Below are positions 1,313-28,214 of a stretch of DNA of 32,815 nucleotides, piece by piece. The stretch comes from an archaeon. GTDB lineage: Archaea; Nanobdellota; Nanobdellia; Woesearchaeales; GW2011-AR4. The number at the start of each line of letters is the position of its first letter. The first letter of the stretch is position 1. The notes below the pieces were generated by a model, which was given only the letters and a program-made list of their open reading frames with translations, had not been told where the DNA came from and made no database searches. A program made the translations under genes and the position numbers. Location: positions 1 through 32,815 of the forward strand of contig NZEC01000011.1 in assembly GCA_002688925.1 (NCBI GenBank), in the 5' to 3' direction.

Positions 1313-1327
1313 TATTTAAATGTTTCG
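1313..1327 (-). promoter_or_regulatory. BRE/TATA promoter of the rRNA transcript
   Basis: Minus strand CGAAACATTTAAATA, an archaeal BRE+TATA, about 140 nt upstream of the 16S 5' end. The same 15-mer recurs at 11479-11493. Confidence 0.7.
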
Positions 1328-9569: not shown

Positions 9570-11369
9570 ATGAAAAAAATAATAATCTTCCTGATATTGC
9601 TGTTACTGATTCCTACAGTTAATGCCCAAAGGGGTAATATGAAGCTGCTTGCAGTTTCTGAAACAAATAACGGCTATAAAGGTGGAGTTGCAGACTTGTT
9701 CCTTGAAATCAAGCCGGGCTCCGGCCGTGTTTTTTTAGAAACTTTTCCTTTGACAAAAGTAGACACTCAAATCTCAACAAGGTTTGCAAAGGAAATAGCA
9801 TGCGATTTTGCAGAAGCTGATTGTGAAAAATTTGATTTCTTTTATACAATAACAGCAGGCTCATCAATCATTGCAGGCCCATCTGCAGGAGCAGCAATCT
9901 CAGTTTTGACATTCTCCTTGATTAAAGGTGTTGATTACGATAAAAACATAGCAATAACCGGTACAATAAATTCTGGCGGCTTAATCGGACCTGTAGGAGG
10001 AATAAAAGCAAAGATAGAAGCTGCAGACAGGATTGGATTAAAAAAAGTTCTCATACCTCTTGGAGAACTAATTGCAGCGGAAACCATAACAGGAAATGAT
10101 GCTGCAAATAAAAGCACAAACCCAAGTATAAACGAAAGTTTTGACCTGGAAGAGATGAGAAAAGAGCTTGACATGGATATCATTGAAGTTTCGACTTTAG
10201 ATGAGGCAATATTTGAATTTACAGGCAAAAGATTCAGGCAAAAAAAAGCGGATTTGACCATAAGCCCAGATTATAAAGATACGATGAAGATGCTTGCAAT
10301 ACAATTATGTTCAAGAAGCACAAAACTAAAAAACAAAATCTCAGATTTTCCGGCTACAGGAAACAGGACAGAACAAATACAAAAAAACGCATTCAATCTG
10401 TCTGAAAAAGGCAAGGACTCGTTTAATGATGGAACTTACTATTCCGCAGCATCCTATTGCTTTGGAGCTAATGTCGAGTTTAATTACCTGGATTTATTAG
10501 CTCAAAATTTGACAGAAAAAGAGATAACAGAAAAAGTTCAAGAGCTAAAAGAAGAAATAAAAAATTTTGACACGGAAATAGGAAACAGGGGAATAAAAAC
10601 TATTACAGACCTGGAATCATACATGGTTGTAAAGGAACGATTGATAGAAGCAAATGATTTCCTGAACCTTGCACTGGAAACTATTACAAATAAAAATACA
10701 AGCCTGCATAACCTAGCATATTCAATCGAAAGAATAAACTCAGCAGAATCTTGGTCTAAATTTTTATCAAATACAGGGAAAAAATTTGACCTCAACAGTG
10801 AGGTAATAAAAAATACATGCAAGACTAAGCTTTCAGAAGTGGAAGAACGACTTCAATATGTCCAGCTTTATTTTCCGCAAAACCTCGCAAATACAAGAAA
10901 AGAGCTTGAATACGCTTACCTAGATTTAGAGGAAAATAACTATGAGCTGTGCCTTTTCAAGGCAAGCAAGGCAAAGGCAAATGTTGATACTATCTTAAGC
11001 GTTTTCGGAGTAAGCACTGATAATATCAACAGCGTAATTGACCAAAAGCTCAATATTGTTGAAAGGAATCTTGTAGAAGAAACTGAAAAAGGCATTTTTC
11101 CTATCCTGGGTTATAGCTACTTTGAGTATGCAAATTCCCTGAAAAACTCAGATCCTTTCTCTGCATTGCTTTATTCCGGTTACGCATTGGAATTAAGCAA
11201 TCTTGACATATACTTTAAGAGCTATAATGGGAATATTAATTTTCCAGAAATTGACAAAAAGCTTTTTGTCGTTTTAATATTCGGAATTATACTTGGAATA
11301 ATAATTGCGAATATTCCAAGGATAAGCAAAAAAACAACTAAAAGAAAACCAAAAAGAATCAATAAATGA
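9570..11369 (+). CDS. Secreted/membrane-anchored Lon-like S16 protease without AAA+ domain
   Basis: Signal peptide; catalytic Ser motif AGPSAGAAISV and GPVGGIKAKIEAA (Lys); C-terminal TM helix LFVVLIFGIILGIIIANIP plus basic tail. Confidence 0.85.
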   Translation: MKKIIIFLILLLLIPTVNAQRGNMKLLAVSETNNGYKGGVADLFLEIKPGSGRVFLETFPLTKVDTQISTRFAKEIACDFAEADCEKFDFFYTITAGSSIIAGPSAGAAISVLTFSLIKGVDYDKNIAITGTINSGGLIGPVGGIKAKIEAADRIGLKKVLIPLGELIAAETITGNDAANKSTNPSINESFDLEEMRKELDMDIIEVSTLDEAIFEFTGKRFRQKKADLTISPDYKDTMKMLAIQLCSRSTKLKNKISDFPATGNRTEQIQKNAFNLSEKGKDSFNDGTYYSAASYCFGANVEFNYLDLLAQNLTEKEITEKVQELKEEIKNFDTEIGNRGIKTITDLESYMVVKERLIEANDFLNLALETITNKNTSLHNLAYSIERINSAESWSKFLSNTGKKFDLNSEVIKNTCKTKLSEVEERLQYVQLYFPQNLANTRKELEYAYLDLEENNYELCLFKASKAKANVDTILSVFGVSTDNINSVIDQKLNIVERNLVEETEKGIFPILGYSYFEYANSLKNSDPFSALLYSGYALELSNLDIYFKSYNGNINFPEIDKKLFVVLIFGIILGIIIANIPRISKKTTKRKPKRINK

Positions 11370-11377
11370 TTATTAAA

Positions 11378-11456
11378 CCCCGGCAAAGCCGAAACCTTGC
11401 CAGGGAAAAAGAGGTGATAGATTATTGTTAATTACTTAACAATAGTCTTATCGTAT
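11378..11456 (-). ncRNA. Candidate two-hairpin small RNA with an anti-Shine-Dalgarno linker
   Basis: Promoter at 11479-11493(-) identical over 15 nt to the 16S promoter; hairpin 11416-11452 (GUAA loop on minus strand); linker ACCUCUUUUU (11406-11415); hairpin 11378-11405 (UUCG loop on minus strand); T-rich tracts downstream on the minus strand (about 11335-11355). Confidence 0.45.
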
Positions 11457-11478
11457 TGTTACTGTATCATAGTACTAC

Positions 11479-11493
11479 TATTTAAATGTTTCG
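11479..11493 (-). promoter_or_regulatory. rRNA-like BRE/TATA promoter (CGAAACATTTAAATA)
   Basis: 15/15 identity with 1313-1327(-); no minus-strand CDS follows. Confidence 0.6.
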
Positions 11494-11537
11494 CATTTTT
11501 TTTGGCCTATAACTGAAAAATAACATAAATAATCAGT

Positions 11538-12533
11538 ATGGAAACAAAAATTAAAAGGTGCAATATCTTAATTTTATTTCTCTTCTTATTTTTAATAAGC
11601 AGCTGCAGCAATATTTTAAATAAAAACAGTGTTAATTCTAAGGATATTTATGAGCCAAATATAAACTTAAATGCTTATTTCTGCCCCAGGGATAATTGTG
11701 CTGCTATAATAAAAAATTTAGTGGATAATGCAGAAAGTTCTGTTCACTGCGCCCTTTACGATCTCGATCTGAAAGAACTAATCACTGCAATTGCAAAAAA
11801 AAGCAAAAAGGCCGATGTAAAAATAGTGATTGACCACAATAACTATGATGAGCAGATTAAAGGGCCGGGAATAAAAGTAGCAAAATCAAAGCAGTACATG
11901 CACAATAAGTTCTGCATAGTCGATAATAAAAAAGTATTAACAGGAAGTTTTAACCCGACAACAAACGGCGCTATTTATAACAACAACAATGTCATAACAA
12001 TAGATTCAGAATATATTGCTGTTAATTATGAAGACGAATTCAATGAATTATGGAACGGCATCTATGTAGCAGGAGATAAGGTAAAATATGAAAAAATAAG
12101 TTCTGATAACCTGGTTATAGAAAATTATTTCTGCCCAGAAGATGGCTGCAAACAGCATACAATAGATGCTTTAAGCGATGCACAAGAAAGCATTTACTTC
12201 ATGACATTCTCCTTTACAGATGAGGACATTGCAGATGCAATCTTATTCAAAAATGTAGATATAAAAGGAATTTTTGAAACAACGCAGGCCGGAAGCAAGT
12301 ACTCCCAATATCAAAGATTAAAAGATTTTGGCCTGGATGTAAAAAAAGACAAAAACAAAAGAAACATGCACCACAAGGCATTCATAATAGACAGGAAAAT
12401 TGTATTAACAGGAAGCTTTAACCCAACAGGAAGCGGAAACTTCAGGAATGATGAAAATATAATAATAATCCACAATAAAGCTATTGCAGATAAATTCTTA
12501 GGGGAATTTAATATTGTCTGGAATCTGGAATAA
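11538..12533 (+). CDS. PLD-family phosphodiesterase/nuclease, predicted lipoprotein
   Basis: Two HKD motifs: HNKFCIVDNKKVLTGSFNPT and HHKAFIIDRKIVLTGSFNPT; N-terminal hydrophobic stretch ending in LISSCS (lipobox-like). Confidence 0.88.
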   Translation: METKIKRCNILILFLFLFLISSCSNILNKNSVNSKDIYEPNINLNAYFCPRDNCAAIIKNLVDNAESSVHCALYDLDLKELITAIAKKSKKADVKIVIDHNNYDEQIKGPGIKVAKSKQYMHNKFCIVDNKKVLTGSFNPTTNGAIYNNNNVITIDSEYIAVNYEDEFNELWNGIYVAGDKVKYEKISSDNLVIENYFCPEDGCKQHTIDALSDAQESIYFMTFSFTDEDIADAILFKNVDIKGIFETTQAGSKYSQYQRLKDFGLDVKKDKNKRNMHHKAFIIDRKIVLTGSFNPTGSGNFRNDENIIIIHNKAIADKFLGEFNIVWNLE

Positions 12534-15900: not shown

Positions 15901-16668
15901 ATGGCAGATGCTAATATAAAGAATCTTGTATTCGGGATGCTTCTTCTTGTAATCCTTATCTTTGGAGGGGCATACTTGTTCAGCTTCATAGAGGGAGTAA
16001 ACTTATTTGATTCATTATATTCTATTTTTTTGGTTGTGACAACTGTAGAAAGCCCTGAAAATCCCCTCACATTTAATGGAAGAGTCCTGATAATGGTGGT
16101 ATTGGCTTTTGGCATGGGGCTGATGTTTTATATTGCAATATCTATAGCAAGCGCCGTTATAGAGGGAAACACAACATTATTATTAGGCGGAATTAAAGGA
16201 GGTCTGGTCAGAATGAAAAAAGAAAAAAATCATACTATTGTATGCGGTTATGGAAAATTGGGGAAATATGTTTGCAGCATATTAAAGGAGAAAAAGCAAA
16301 AGTATATTGTTATAGATAAAGACAGTGATAAATGCACAAACTTGGTTTCTAGCGGAGAATCTGTTTTGCAAGGTGATGCTTTAGATCCTCGTGTCTTAAA
16401 AAAGGCAGGAGTAGAAAAGGCCAGAGGCCTTATAGGGACTTTAGGAGAAGATTCTGAAAATATATATCTTATAATGACAGCAACTGATCTTAATCCAAAC
16501 CTTGATTTAGCAGCAAAGGCAGAGGAGGAGCATGCAGTTGAAAGGCTGCATAAAGTAGGGGCAAAAATAGTTGTATTGCCGCAGGTTGTTGGTGGGAAAC
16601 AGCTTGCAAATGCATTCCTGGAGCTGGAGAAATCAGAAGATCTTGAGACTATCAGCAAAAAGAAGTGA
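15901..16668 (+). CDS. Two-TM ion-channel-like protein with RCK/TrkA-N domain
   Basis: TM1 - LYSIFLVVTTVESPENPLTFNGRVL - TM2 - IVCGYGKLGKYVCSIL Rossmann domain; upstream SD AAAAAAGAGGTAG. Confidence 0.85.
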   Translation: MADANIKNLVFGMLLLVILIFGGAYLFSFIEGVNLFDSLYSIFLVVTTVESPENPLTFNGRVLIMVVLAFGMGLMFYIAISIASAVIEGNTTLLLGGIKGGLVRMKKEKNHTIVCGYGKLGKYVCSILKEKKQKYIVIDKDSDKCTNLVSSGESVLQGDALDPRVLKKAGVEKARGLIGTLGEDSENIYLIMTATDLNPNLDLAAKAEEEHAVERLHKVGAKIVVLPQVVGGKQLANAFLELEKSEDLETISKKK

Positions 16669-23809: not shown

Positions 23810-23991
23810 AAATAAAATAATATTAAGCAACTACAGCGAAATAGATAGCCGCTGATGTGGGCGGGTAAAATTGTTGCTAACAAGGAAAATAAAAAATAAC
23901 AATAAAAAATAACAATAAAAAATATTAATTTCAAAATCAAACCAATTATATTTAAATTATTGTCACATAAATCAAAAAAAGAGGTGGTATC

Positions 23992-25566
23992 TTGAAAAGA
24001 AAATCAAGGCATAAAATAAGTAGTAAAAAGCATCATACTTCGCATTCACATAAATCCAAATCAACTAATAAGAAAACTCCTCATGGCATCAAAATCATTT
24101 CTACTTATAATTTCGATTCCGGAAATATACCAATAACAATAAAGATATACGTAAAAAAAGGGGAATTTGTCCCGATATATGATGTTTCTATAGCAGGCAT
24201 AAGCAAAAACACAGAGATTGTTCTGGAGAAAATAAGGGAAGAACTCACTGCACAGGTAAGTTTGGGAATGGTAGACATATTAAGCATGAAAGATACAGGA
24301 ATCATAGAAAAAAAATTCGGCCAGGCTATAGGGACCCTGCTCAATAAGCATTTTCCCGACGCAAATGAAAAGGTGATTAATTTCCTAAAGTCATATTTAA
24401 TACAGAAAAGCCTGGGCATGGGCTCAATTGAGATTCTTATGGATGATAATGAACTTGAGGAGATTGCAATAAACTGTGCCCAGGACCCGGTCTGGGTTTA
24501 TCATATAAAGCATGGATGGCTGAAAACATCCATAACTCTGCCCAATGAAGAGCAGATCAGGCATTACGCTGCCATGATAGGAAGAAGGGTTGGAAGGCAG
24601 ATAACAGTGCTTGAGCCTTTAATGGATGCTCACCTTGCAAGGGGAGACAGGGTGAATGCTACTTTAGAGCCGATATCTGTAAGAGGCAATACAATCACCC
24701 TAAGAAAGTTTGCCGCAAAGCCATGGACAATAACAGATTTCATAAAATCAGAGACAATATCCACAGGATCAGCAGCCTTGATATGGCTAGGCGTCCAGTA
24801 TGAATTGGCTGCATTGATAGCAGGAGGAACAGCTACCGGGAAAACCTCTATGCTGAATGTTGTCGCAAATTTCTTTCCCCCGAACCAAAGAATAATAAGC
24901 ATAGAAGATACCCGAGAGATTCAACTTCCTAAATTTCTGCACTGGATCCCTATGATAACAAGGCTTCCAAACCCCGAAGGCAAGGGAGAAATTTCAATGC
25001 TTGATTTGCTTGTAAACTCATTAAGAATGAGGCCTGACCGCATAATATTTGGTGAGATAAGAAGAAAAAGAGAGGCAGAAGTTCTTTTTGAAGCAATTCA
25101 TACAGGCCATTCCGTATATGCCACTCTGCACGCTAATGACACTAATGAAACAATAACCAGGCTTACAAACCCCCCAATCGAGATACCAAAAACAATGCTG
25201 CCAGCTATCTCTATGATCATCGTCCAGTACCGTAACAGGCGAAGTGGAATTAGAAAGACATTCCAGATATCTGAAATTTTGCCTAATTCCGAAACAAACA
25301 CTTTGATACAATTAGACATAAAGTCAGGAAAATTAAATAAGATAAACAGGTCAAAATCTTTGTTTAATACAATTGAGACCTTTACAGGATTTTCAAAAAA
25401 GGAAATGGTAAAGTCATTAAAAGAAAAAGAATCGGTTCTTAAGTGGCTGGTCAAGCAAAACATAAACACAGTGGATACTGTAGGAAAAGTAATGGCAGAA
25501 TACTACACGCAGCCCGATTACCTAATGGGTTTTGTCAAAAAAAATAAGCCTTTAATTAGAAAATGA
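23992..25566 (+). CDS. Type II/IV secretion / T4P assembly ATPase (archaeal GspE/TadA-like), TTG start
   Basis: Walker A-like LIAGGTATGKTSMLN; SIEDTREIQLP; LRMRPDRIIFGEIRRKREAEVLFEAIHTGHSVYATLHAND; SD AAAAAAAGAGGTGG before TTG. Confidence 0.94.
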   Translation: MKRKSRHKISSKKHHTSHSHKSKSTNKKTPHGIKIISTYNFDSGNIPITIKIYVKKGEFVPIYDVSIAGISKNTEIVLEKIREELTAQVSLGMVDILSMKDTGIIEKKFGQAIGTLLNKHFPDANEKVINFLKSYLIQKSLGMGSIEILMDDNELEEIAINCAQDPVWVYHIKHGWLKTSITLPNEEQIRHYAAMIGRRVGRQITVLEPLMDAHLARGDRVNATLEPISVRGNTITLRKFAAKPWTITDFIKSETISTGSAALIWLGVQYELAALIAGGTATGKTSMLNVVANFFPPNQRIISIEDTREIQLPKFLHWIPMITRLPNPEGKGEISMLDLLVNSLRMRPDRIIFGEIRRKREAEVLFEAIHTGHSVYATLHANDTNETITRLTNPPIEIPKTMLPAISMIIVQYRNRRSGIRKTFQISEILPNSETNTLIQLDIKSGKLNKINRSKSLFNTIETFTGFSKKEMVKSLKEKESVLKWLVKQNINTVDTVGKVMAEYYTQPDYLMGFVKKNKPLIRK

Positions 25567-27568: not shown

Positions 27569-27764
27569 TTATCAAGAGTTACACTATCATTTAATTGCCC
27601 AAAAATTACTACTAAGTATGGACTATAATATATATATTACACTATAACTGTATATCAGTATACAAAAACATAACATTTAAATACTAGCTATTGTATTAAT
27701 TTCCATTGATTAATAGAATCAGAACTAAAATACTAGATTATAATAAAAATAAGAGGTGTGAATA

Positions 27765-28214
27765 ATGAAACTTAACCCAATCAGGCATAAAAAATCTCAA
27801 GCAGCCATGGAATTCTTAATGACCTATGGTTGGGCTATTCTAGTCGTTCTCGCTGCAATTGCAGCATTAGCATATTTCGGTGTTTTAAGCCCTGAAAAAT
27901 TTCTGCCTGAGAAATGTCTAATTGAGACAGGCTTCACATGCATAAGCAGTAAAGTTGAATCTACTCAATCAACAATAGTATTTTCAAATGGATATGGGAA
28001 GAGTATAGTTATAGACACCATCCAGATAGGTGGCTGTCAAGCTAGTTTCAATACATCCATGACAAGTGAAGACGAAGACCTTTTTGTTATAACCGGATGC
28101 AATAATGGAGATGTAAAAGATACATTTAAGGGTGATGTTACTATAAAATACATGGAAAAGCGTACTGGTCTTAATAAAACCGCATACGGTGTAATAAATA
28201 CAAAGATAGAATAA
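27765..28214 (+). CDS. Class III signal-peptide pilin (major pilin candidate 1)
   Basis: KKSQAAMEFLMTYGWAILVVLAAIAALAYFGVLSP; SD AAGAGGTG; four Cys in the head. Confidence 0.9.
   Translation: MKLNPIRHKKSQAAMEFLMTYGWAILVVLAAIAALAYFGVLSPEKFLPEKCLIETGFTCISSKVESTQSTIVFSNGYGKSIVIDTIQIGGCQASFNTSMTSEDEDLFVITGCNNGDVKDTFKGDVTIKYMEKRTGLNKTAYGVINTKIE
27789..27835 (+). repeat. 47-bp perfect repeat shared with 28255-28301
   Basis: AAAAAATCTCAAGCAGCCATGGAATTCTTAATGACCTATGGTTGGGC in both pilin genes. Confidence 0.95.

Follow-up and report, generated by a model that had tools for sequence, protein, structure and literature searches.

The window analysed here is a 32,815-nucleotide stretch of contig NZEC01000011.1 (assembly GCA_002688925.1) from an archaeon of the order Woesearchaeales (Nanobdellota; Nanobdellia), which carries the archaeal 16S gene on the minus strand at its start, with the 5' end of that gene near 1171 (-). 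Further along, two plus-strand genes, one with a Lon_C domain (9570-11369) and one PLD-like (11538-12533), flank a predicted small RNA of about 91 nt on the minus strand (11370..11460), whose extent we infer from the promoter position, the conserved stretch and an alignment of relatives (A3, below). An earlier, sequence-only reading of this DNA had proposed a non-coding RNA here, with a promoter matching that of 16S over 15 nt and no coding sequence downstream, and both points held: the 15-mer CGAAACATTTAAATA at 11479-11493 (-) recurs letter for letter ahead of the 16S gene, at 1313-1327 (-), and there is no minus-strand ORF of at least 60 amino acids between 10822 and 12311.

A promoter and a folded element on the minus strand

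The 15-mer at 11479..11493 (-) reads as an archaeal promoter, with a BRE (CGAAA) and a TATA box (TTTAAATA), and the window contains four sites within two mismatches of it where 0.26 would be expected. Applying the spacing known from Nanoarchaeum equitans, in which box A lies 26-27 nt from the start of transcription (PMC3491384), places the predicted start of the small RNA near 11460. The arrangement is shared by the relatives, since GAAA-N1-3-TATA is found upstream of 75 of the 95 first modules in the window genome and its relatives, as against 22 of 639 random windows. In kind, the element has the appearance of a candidate anti-Shine-Dalgarno (anti-SD) small RNA with its own conserved BRE and TATA box and without a coding sequence. 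A first operator pattern, written as a regular expression, matched near only 1 of 73 sRNA promoters, and a looser one, RCYAYT, occurred in 34 of 77, lying 30-31 nt ahead of the TATA box (shuffles gave about 2.3 over the whole tested range); dyads resembling ACTACT...AGTAGT also surround sRNA promoters of relatives, for example at loci L012, L077 and L200, and motif and dyads may together mark the site of a regulator.

When folded, the minus strand yields the order that the sequence-only reading had drawn, namely hairpin A, a linker and hairpin B, with a z-score of -4.96 and none of 200 shuffles as stable. Hairpin A (11416..11452, -), placed by fold and alignment, carries a GNRA loop (GUAA) and forms a lineage-specific 5' domain, and hairpin B (11378..11405, -) has 12 bp, a UUCG loop and a following UUU, and corresponds to a 13-pair helix over 51 sequences. 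The linker between them is present as AUCACCUCUUUUU (11418-11406, -), but its extent needed redrawing, for it forms part of a longer conserved box, AUCACCUCUUUUUCCC (11403..11418, -), which joins an anti-SD sequence to a run of U and continues into the CCC at the base of hairpin B. The anti-SD seed, ACCUCUUUUU, is unpaired between the two helices in the predicted fold, and in this genome the AUC preceding it takes part in the basal pairing of hairpin A. A stable fold is predicted for the plus strand too (z = -4.59), but hairpin B loses its wobble pairs there and no conserved ORF accompanies it, and we rejected a plus-strand reading.

Conservation and distribution of the RNA

A DNA search with the whole region aligned 126-156 bases, at 78-88% identity, in nine further genomes from related genera of the family, and in a tenth the region matched in two pieces; at locus L011 (G004:C37, near 1590), two extra hairpins inside hairpin A split the match in this way. 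Alignment A3 combines the window with nine of these relatives (10 genomes), gathered by whole-region similarity and without use of the box. Across these 10 genomes the box is unchanged while the stems vary in a paired fashion, with two pairs in each hairpin changed on both sides. In hairpin A, 96% of cells are paired, and pairing is destroyed by sliding the partners: a shift of one to three columns takes the paired cells of A3 from 97.8% to about 32-50%. A larger set of 51 modules was picked by the box, so most of the box is constant there by construction; within it, 91.4% of the cells in the 13 pairs of hairpin B are paired, 11 of the 13 pairs show compensatory change, and the covariation score is 0.505 against 0.219 in shuffles, none of which scored as well. 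The sequence-only reading had staked its case on compensatory change in the stems of relatives and on their keeping the ACCUC linker; both hairpins covary and the linker is retained. Its two-hairpin architecture stands for the window, where it is conserved, but hairpin A is not general across the family. Taken on these comparisons of sequence, it is well supported that the stretch represents a conserved RNA gene, beyond what chance would give.

The core module of the window (11373..11421, -) scores 59.9 bits with covariance model R1 (E = 6.7e-16). We applied a covariance model of the 3' half to the order, to a sample of the phylum and to four bacterial genomes that contain the exact box by chance. 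It matched 258 of 292 genomes of the order at E<=0.001, and 243 of 292 at E<=1e-6, as well as 243 of 285 genomes at E<=0.001 in the phylum sample, which includes many genomes outside the order, usually with one to few matches per genome; the bacterial genomes reached at most 29.3 bits and E values down to 1.5e-5, and matches weaker than about E = 1e-6 are therefore held uncertain. A pattern scan for the exact box followed by TNGC in the genomes of 85,462 species gave 58 stretches, nearly all from Woesearchaeota/Nanoarchaeota and none in viral contigs.

What is shared across this range is a core of BRE and TATA box followed by AUCACCUCUUUUUCCC, a hairpin and GGGUUU. In 14 of 16 loci measured outside the order, the TATA box lies 31-35 nt before CACCTC, and with this spacing the box would form the 5' end of an RNA predicted to be about 55 nt long. 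Woesearchaeales often have an inserted 5' domain, which differs in kind among them and of which hairpin A is the window's version; in other lineages hairpin A is absent or replaced, and some genomes carry two modules in tandem.

Several further elements were seen in passing. The window genome has a second strong copy (L192, G000:C18:125193-125246), which lacks the hairpin A domain and has AACACCTCTTTTCCC as its box. The same box occurs in a second structured element (L021, at G000:C18 near 41046, L025 and L026), in which (A)TCACCTCTTTTTCCC and a spacer precede a long GGCCCCC...GGGGGCC stem; this element has no Rfam match, and an L021-type query found matches in 12 of 60 relatives, mainly to the stem part, with the box seen in few. 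In one genus (L012, L014, L016, L019), a conserved and structured-looking element, GCCCGTCACGAGAGTACC...GGTTAGTGTCACGGGC, adjoins the sRNA, with a TATA-like sequence upstream at some loci and no Rfam match in L012.

Against Rfam release 15, neither the window element nor the scanned relatives scored at the gathering level for any family, and the matches were at chance level only; SRP RNA, RNase P RNA and C/D and H/ACA guides were set aside on covariance scores below gathering. Searching the literature with the box sequence turned up no paper, and the papers searched contained no regulatory RNAs of these archaea. The RNA is thus absent from Rfam and from the papers searched, though most of the genomes sampled from a large class of archaea have it.

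Shine-Dalgarno leaders and putative targets

The 16S tails of the relatives read GGATCACCTCCWTTT or GGATCACCTCC, followed by a T-rich spacer, and the box equals this tail minus one C. The proposed mimicry of the 16S 3' tail is accordingly right as to the copying, but not to the letter. The 16S 3' end of the same archaea likewise consists of AUCACCUC with U-rich sequence after it, and in the window it shares the identical promoter 15-mer; the sRNA differs in being one C shorter, in being a separate gene and in having a hairpin after the box. That we are dealing with a non-coding RNA gene which has a 16S-like promoter and carries the 16S anti-SD sequence is, as a reading of the DNA, well supported.

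Complements of the box were looked for in the leaders of genes. Strong SD 6-mers precede 24 of the 418 genes of the genome, against 17 at a shifted control position, and most are of the GGAGGT or AGGTGA type, without an A-run. SD-like sites do exist at the three places that had been put forward as the SD style of the window (about 15885, 23977 and 27749), but strong SDs are exceptional in this genome rather than a style of it. Two of the sites belong to putative targets. The pilus ATPase gene (23992-25566) has an AAAAAGAGGTGG-type leader at 23977..23988 (+), for which the computed duplex with the box has 13 bp and -17.0 kcal/mol, as against -12.5 for the 16S tail, and the leader of a pilin gene (27765-28214) has AAAAATAAGAGGTGTG before its ATG, at 27743..27758 (+).

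Orthologues of the pilus ATPase were recognised by Pfam T2SSE, and in 22 of 51, spread over 14 of 31 families, an A-run and then G(A/G)GG(T/G) precede a start codon. The background is 9 of 849 genes taken from three genomes and, in other species, 9 of 317 genes in the neighbourhood of the sRNA, where at least one of the sites is the antisense of the sRNA itself; the ATPase set was searched over a wider span, and with the wider span the latter background becomes 13 of 317 and the contrast persists. The other 29 of the 51 orthologues lack the defined site, some of them with ambiguous starts. In genomes without a detected sRNA the site precedes 0 of 4 ATPase genes, against 22 of 47, four being too few to mean much.

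Among pilin genes, 35 of 42 have an SD-like motif by a loose regular expression and 33 of 42 the core motif, and for 30 of these 33 leaders the computed pairing is stronger with the box than with the 16S tail, in a comparison that is restricted to core-motif leaders and is the only one free of A-run selection; all 22 A-run ATPase leaders likewise favour the box, having been selected for the A-run. By comparison, the box is a better partner than 16S for 5 of 20 other SD genes of this genome. The p-values for these contrasts (about 1e-13 to 1e-23) overstate independence, because the orthologues are related. When all genes were ranked by duplex, the ATPase leader was among the best-ranked in two distant genomes, in a ranking made noisy by uncertain start codons. 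Genome-wide, AAAAAGAGGTGA with one mismatch allowed occurs at 35 sites, against 29 for the reversed pattern, and is not enriched. An ion channel/TrkA_N gene (window 15901-16668, with a channel Pfam hit) has an AAAAGAGGT-type leader in two genomes, here and at L045, and is a possible further target.

The pilus ATPase and the pilins thus form a conserved gene set with sites complementary to the box at their start codons, and can be regarded as putative targets. The sequence-only reading had already suggested them among the messages sequestered by the RNA, and we can put figures to this part of it, with A-run leaders in 22 of 51 ATPase orthologues and box-favoured leaders in 30 of 33 pilins. A small regulon is more likely than the general sequestration of SD-led mRNAs that it also proposed, given how few strong SDs there are and that most other SD genes favour 16S.

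A possible anti-Shine-Dalgarno regulator of pilus genes

We put at about even weight the proposal that this is a trans-acting anti-SD sRNA which blocks translation of a small SD-led regulon, with the pilus ATPase and pilins as the best-supported targets. The minus strand would give rise to a small RNA in which a copy of the 16S 3' tail (AUCACCUC), directly followed by a U-run, stands unpaired, with a stable 3' hairpin closing the molecule. Its box would base-pair with A(4-7)-G(A/G)GGUG leaders in front of start codons, and such pairing would keep the 30S subunit off and repress a few SD-led messages; an Lsm (SmAP) protein, whose gene is present in 55 of 60 relatives, could bind the U-run. An anti-SD sRNA with a limited regulon is the simplest reading, and such RNAs are known in alphaproteobacteria and Methanosarcina. 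Two points weigh against it: 16S itself would bind the same leaders, and a near-invariant box of 16 nt exceeds what target pairing alone would need.

A-rich sequence before an SD can aid initiation without any sRNA. It is therefore conceivable, if rather unlikely, that the pilus genes are simply highly expressed and have leaders with ordinary strong SDs and A-rich enhancers, that both these leaders and the RNA follow the 16S tail, and that the RNA has an unrelated role. GAGGTG does pair with 16S as well, and high expression of pilin genes is probable; yet most of the remaining SDs in the genome are of the GGAGGT or AGGTGA type, lack the A-run and pair better with 16S, and GAGGTG is preceded most often by A, although G would suit 16S better.

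We consider it unlikely that the box is a protein decoy, mimicking the pre-16S end (AUCACCUCC and the U-rich spacer) so as to titrate, or report on, a factor of ribosome assembly or of initiation, for example the endonuclease Nob1, with no pairing to mRNA. The near-invariance of the box across the class would suit a protein site, the box is a single C away from the relatives' pre-16S 3' region, with the T-rich spacer directly after, and the tandem modules of some genomes resemble a titrating RNA; but a decoy leaves unexplained why A-run pilus leaders fit the box better than 16S, and the absent C falls exactly at the 16S 3' end.

Still less probable, to our mind, is a housekeeping particle, in which the RNA would be an Lsm-bound structural RNA, with its U-run between elements, or a guide for another RNA, and the likeness to the 16S tail would be secondary. 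Its presence in most sampled genomes at one to few matches each, its single-stranded U5 and the frequency of the Lsm gene would agree with this, but a search of 16S and downstream rRNA in nine relatives gave no one partner site for the box that was consistent among them, though G-rich stretches there do reach -17 to -19 kcal/mol via wobble, and no C/D, H/ACA or other Rfam family was matched. Very improbable is a reading in which there is no gene, the hairpins being a terminator or spacer and the TATA serving the plus-strand gene at 11538: the TATA core is palindromic (ATTTAAAT) and T-rich sequence follows hairpin B, but the element is kept whole where the flanking genes are quite different, both the position of the BRE and the wobble pairs point to the minus strand, and outside the order the distance from box to promoter is nearly fixed.

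Returning to the anti-SD sRNA, a broader form of the proposal, which we advance tentatively and hold to be possible rather than probable, is a class-wide riboregulator of DPANN archaea that, with its copy of the 16S tail and its rRNA-type promoter, would control type IV pilus synthesis and tie pili to ribosome-making capacity. A role for pili in the attachment of DPANN archaea to their hosts is suspected (PMC11291902). If the target prediction is true, translation control would be linked to surface pili, and gene control in these hard-to-culture organisms would become more open to testing.

The closest counterparts by mode of action are found in alphaproteobacteria, where the anti-SD sRNAs NfeR1/alpha-r14 and AbcR1/AbcR2 repress translation by covering the SD (PMC10746234, PMC8844928). 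They share with the archaeal RNA unpaired, near-invariant anti-SD motifs amid sequence-variable stems, repeated within one RNA. They belong to another domain of life, however, and their motif is CCUCCUCCC rather than AUCACCUCUUUUUCCC, while the archaeal candidate has one or two modules and a different structure. Membership of the alpha-r14 (NfeR1) family by descent was rejected, because that family has CCUCCUCCC in three hairpins and both motif and architecture differ. Among archaea, sRNA154 and sRNA41 of Methanosarcina mazei mask ribosome binding sites (reviewed in PMC5867862) and are, like the present RNA, archaeal and intergenic. The likeness is one of description: those RNAs were described in Methanosarcina, whereas the RNA reported here is class-wide and a near copy of the 16S tail.
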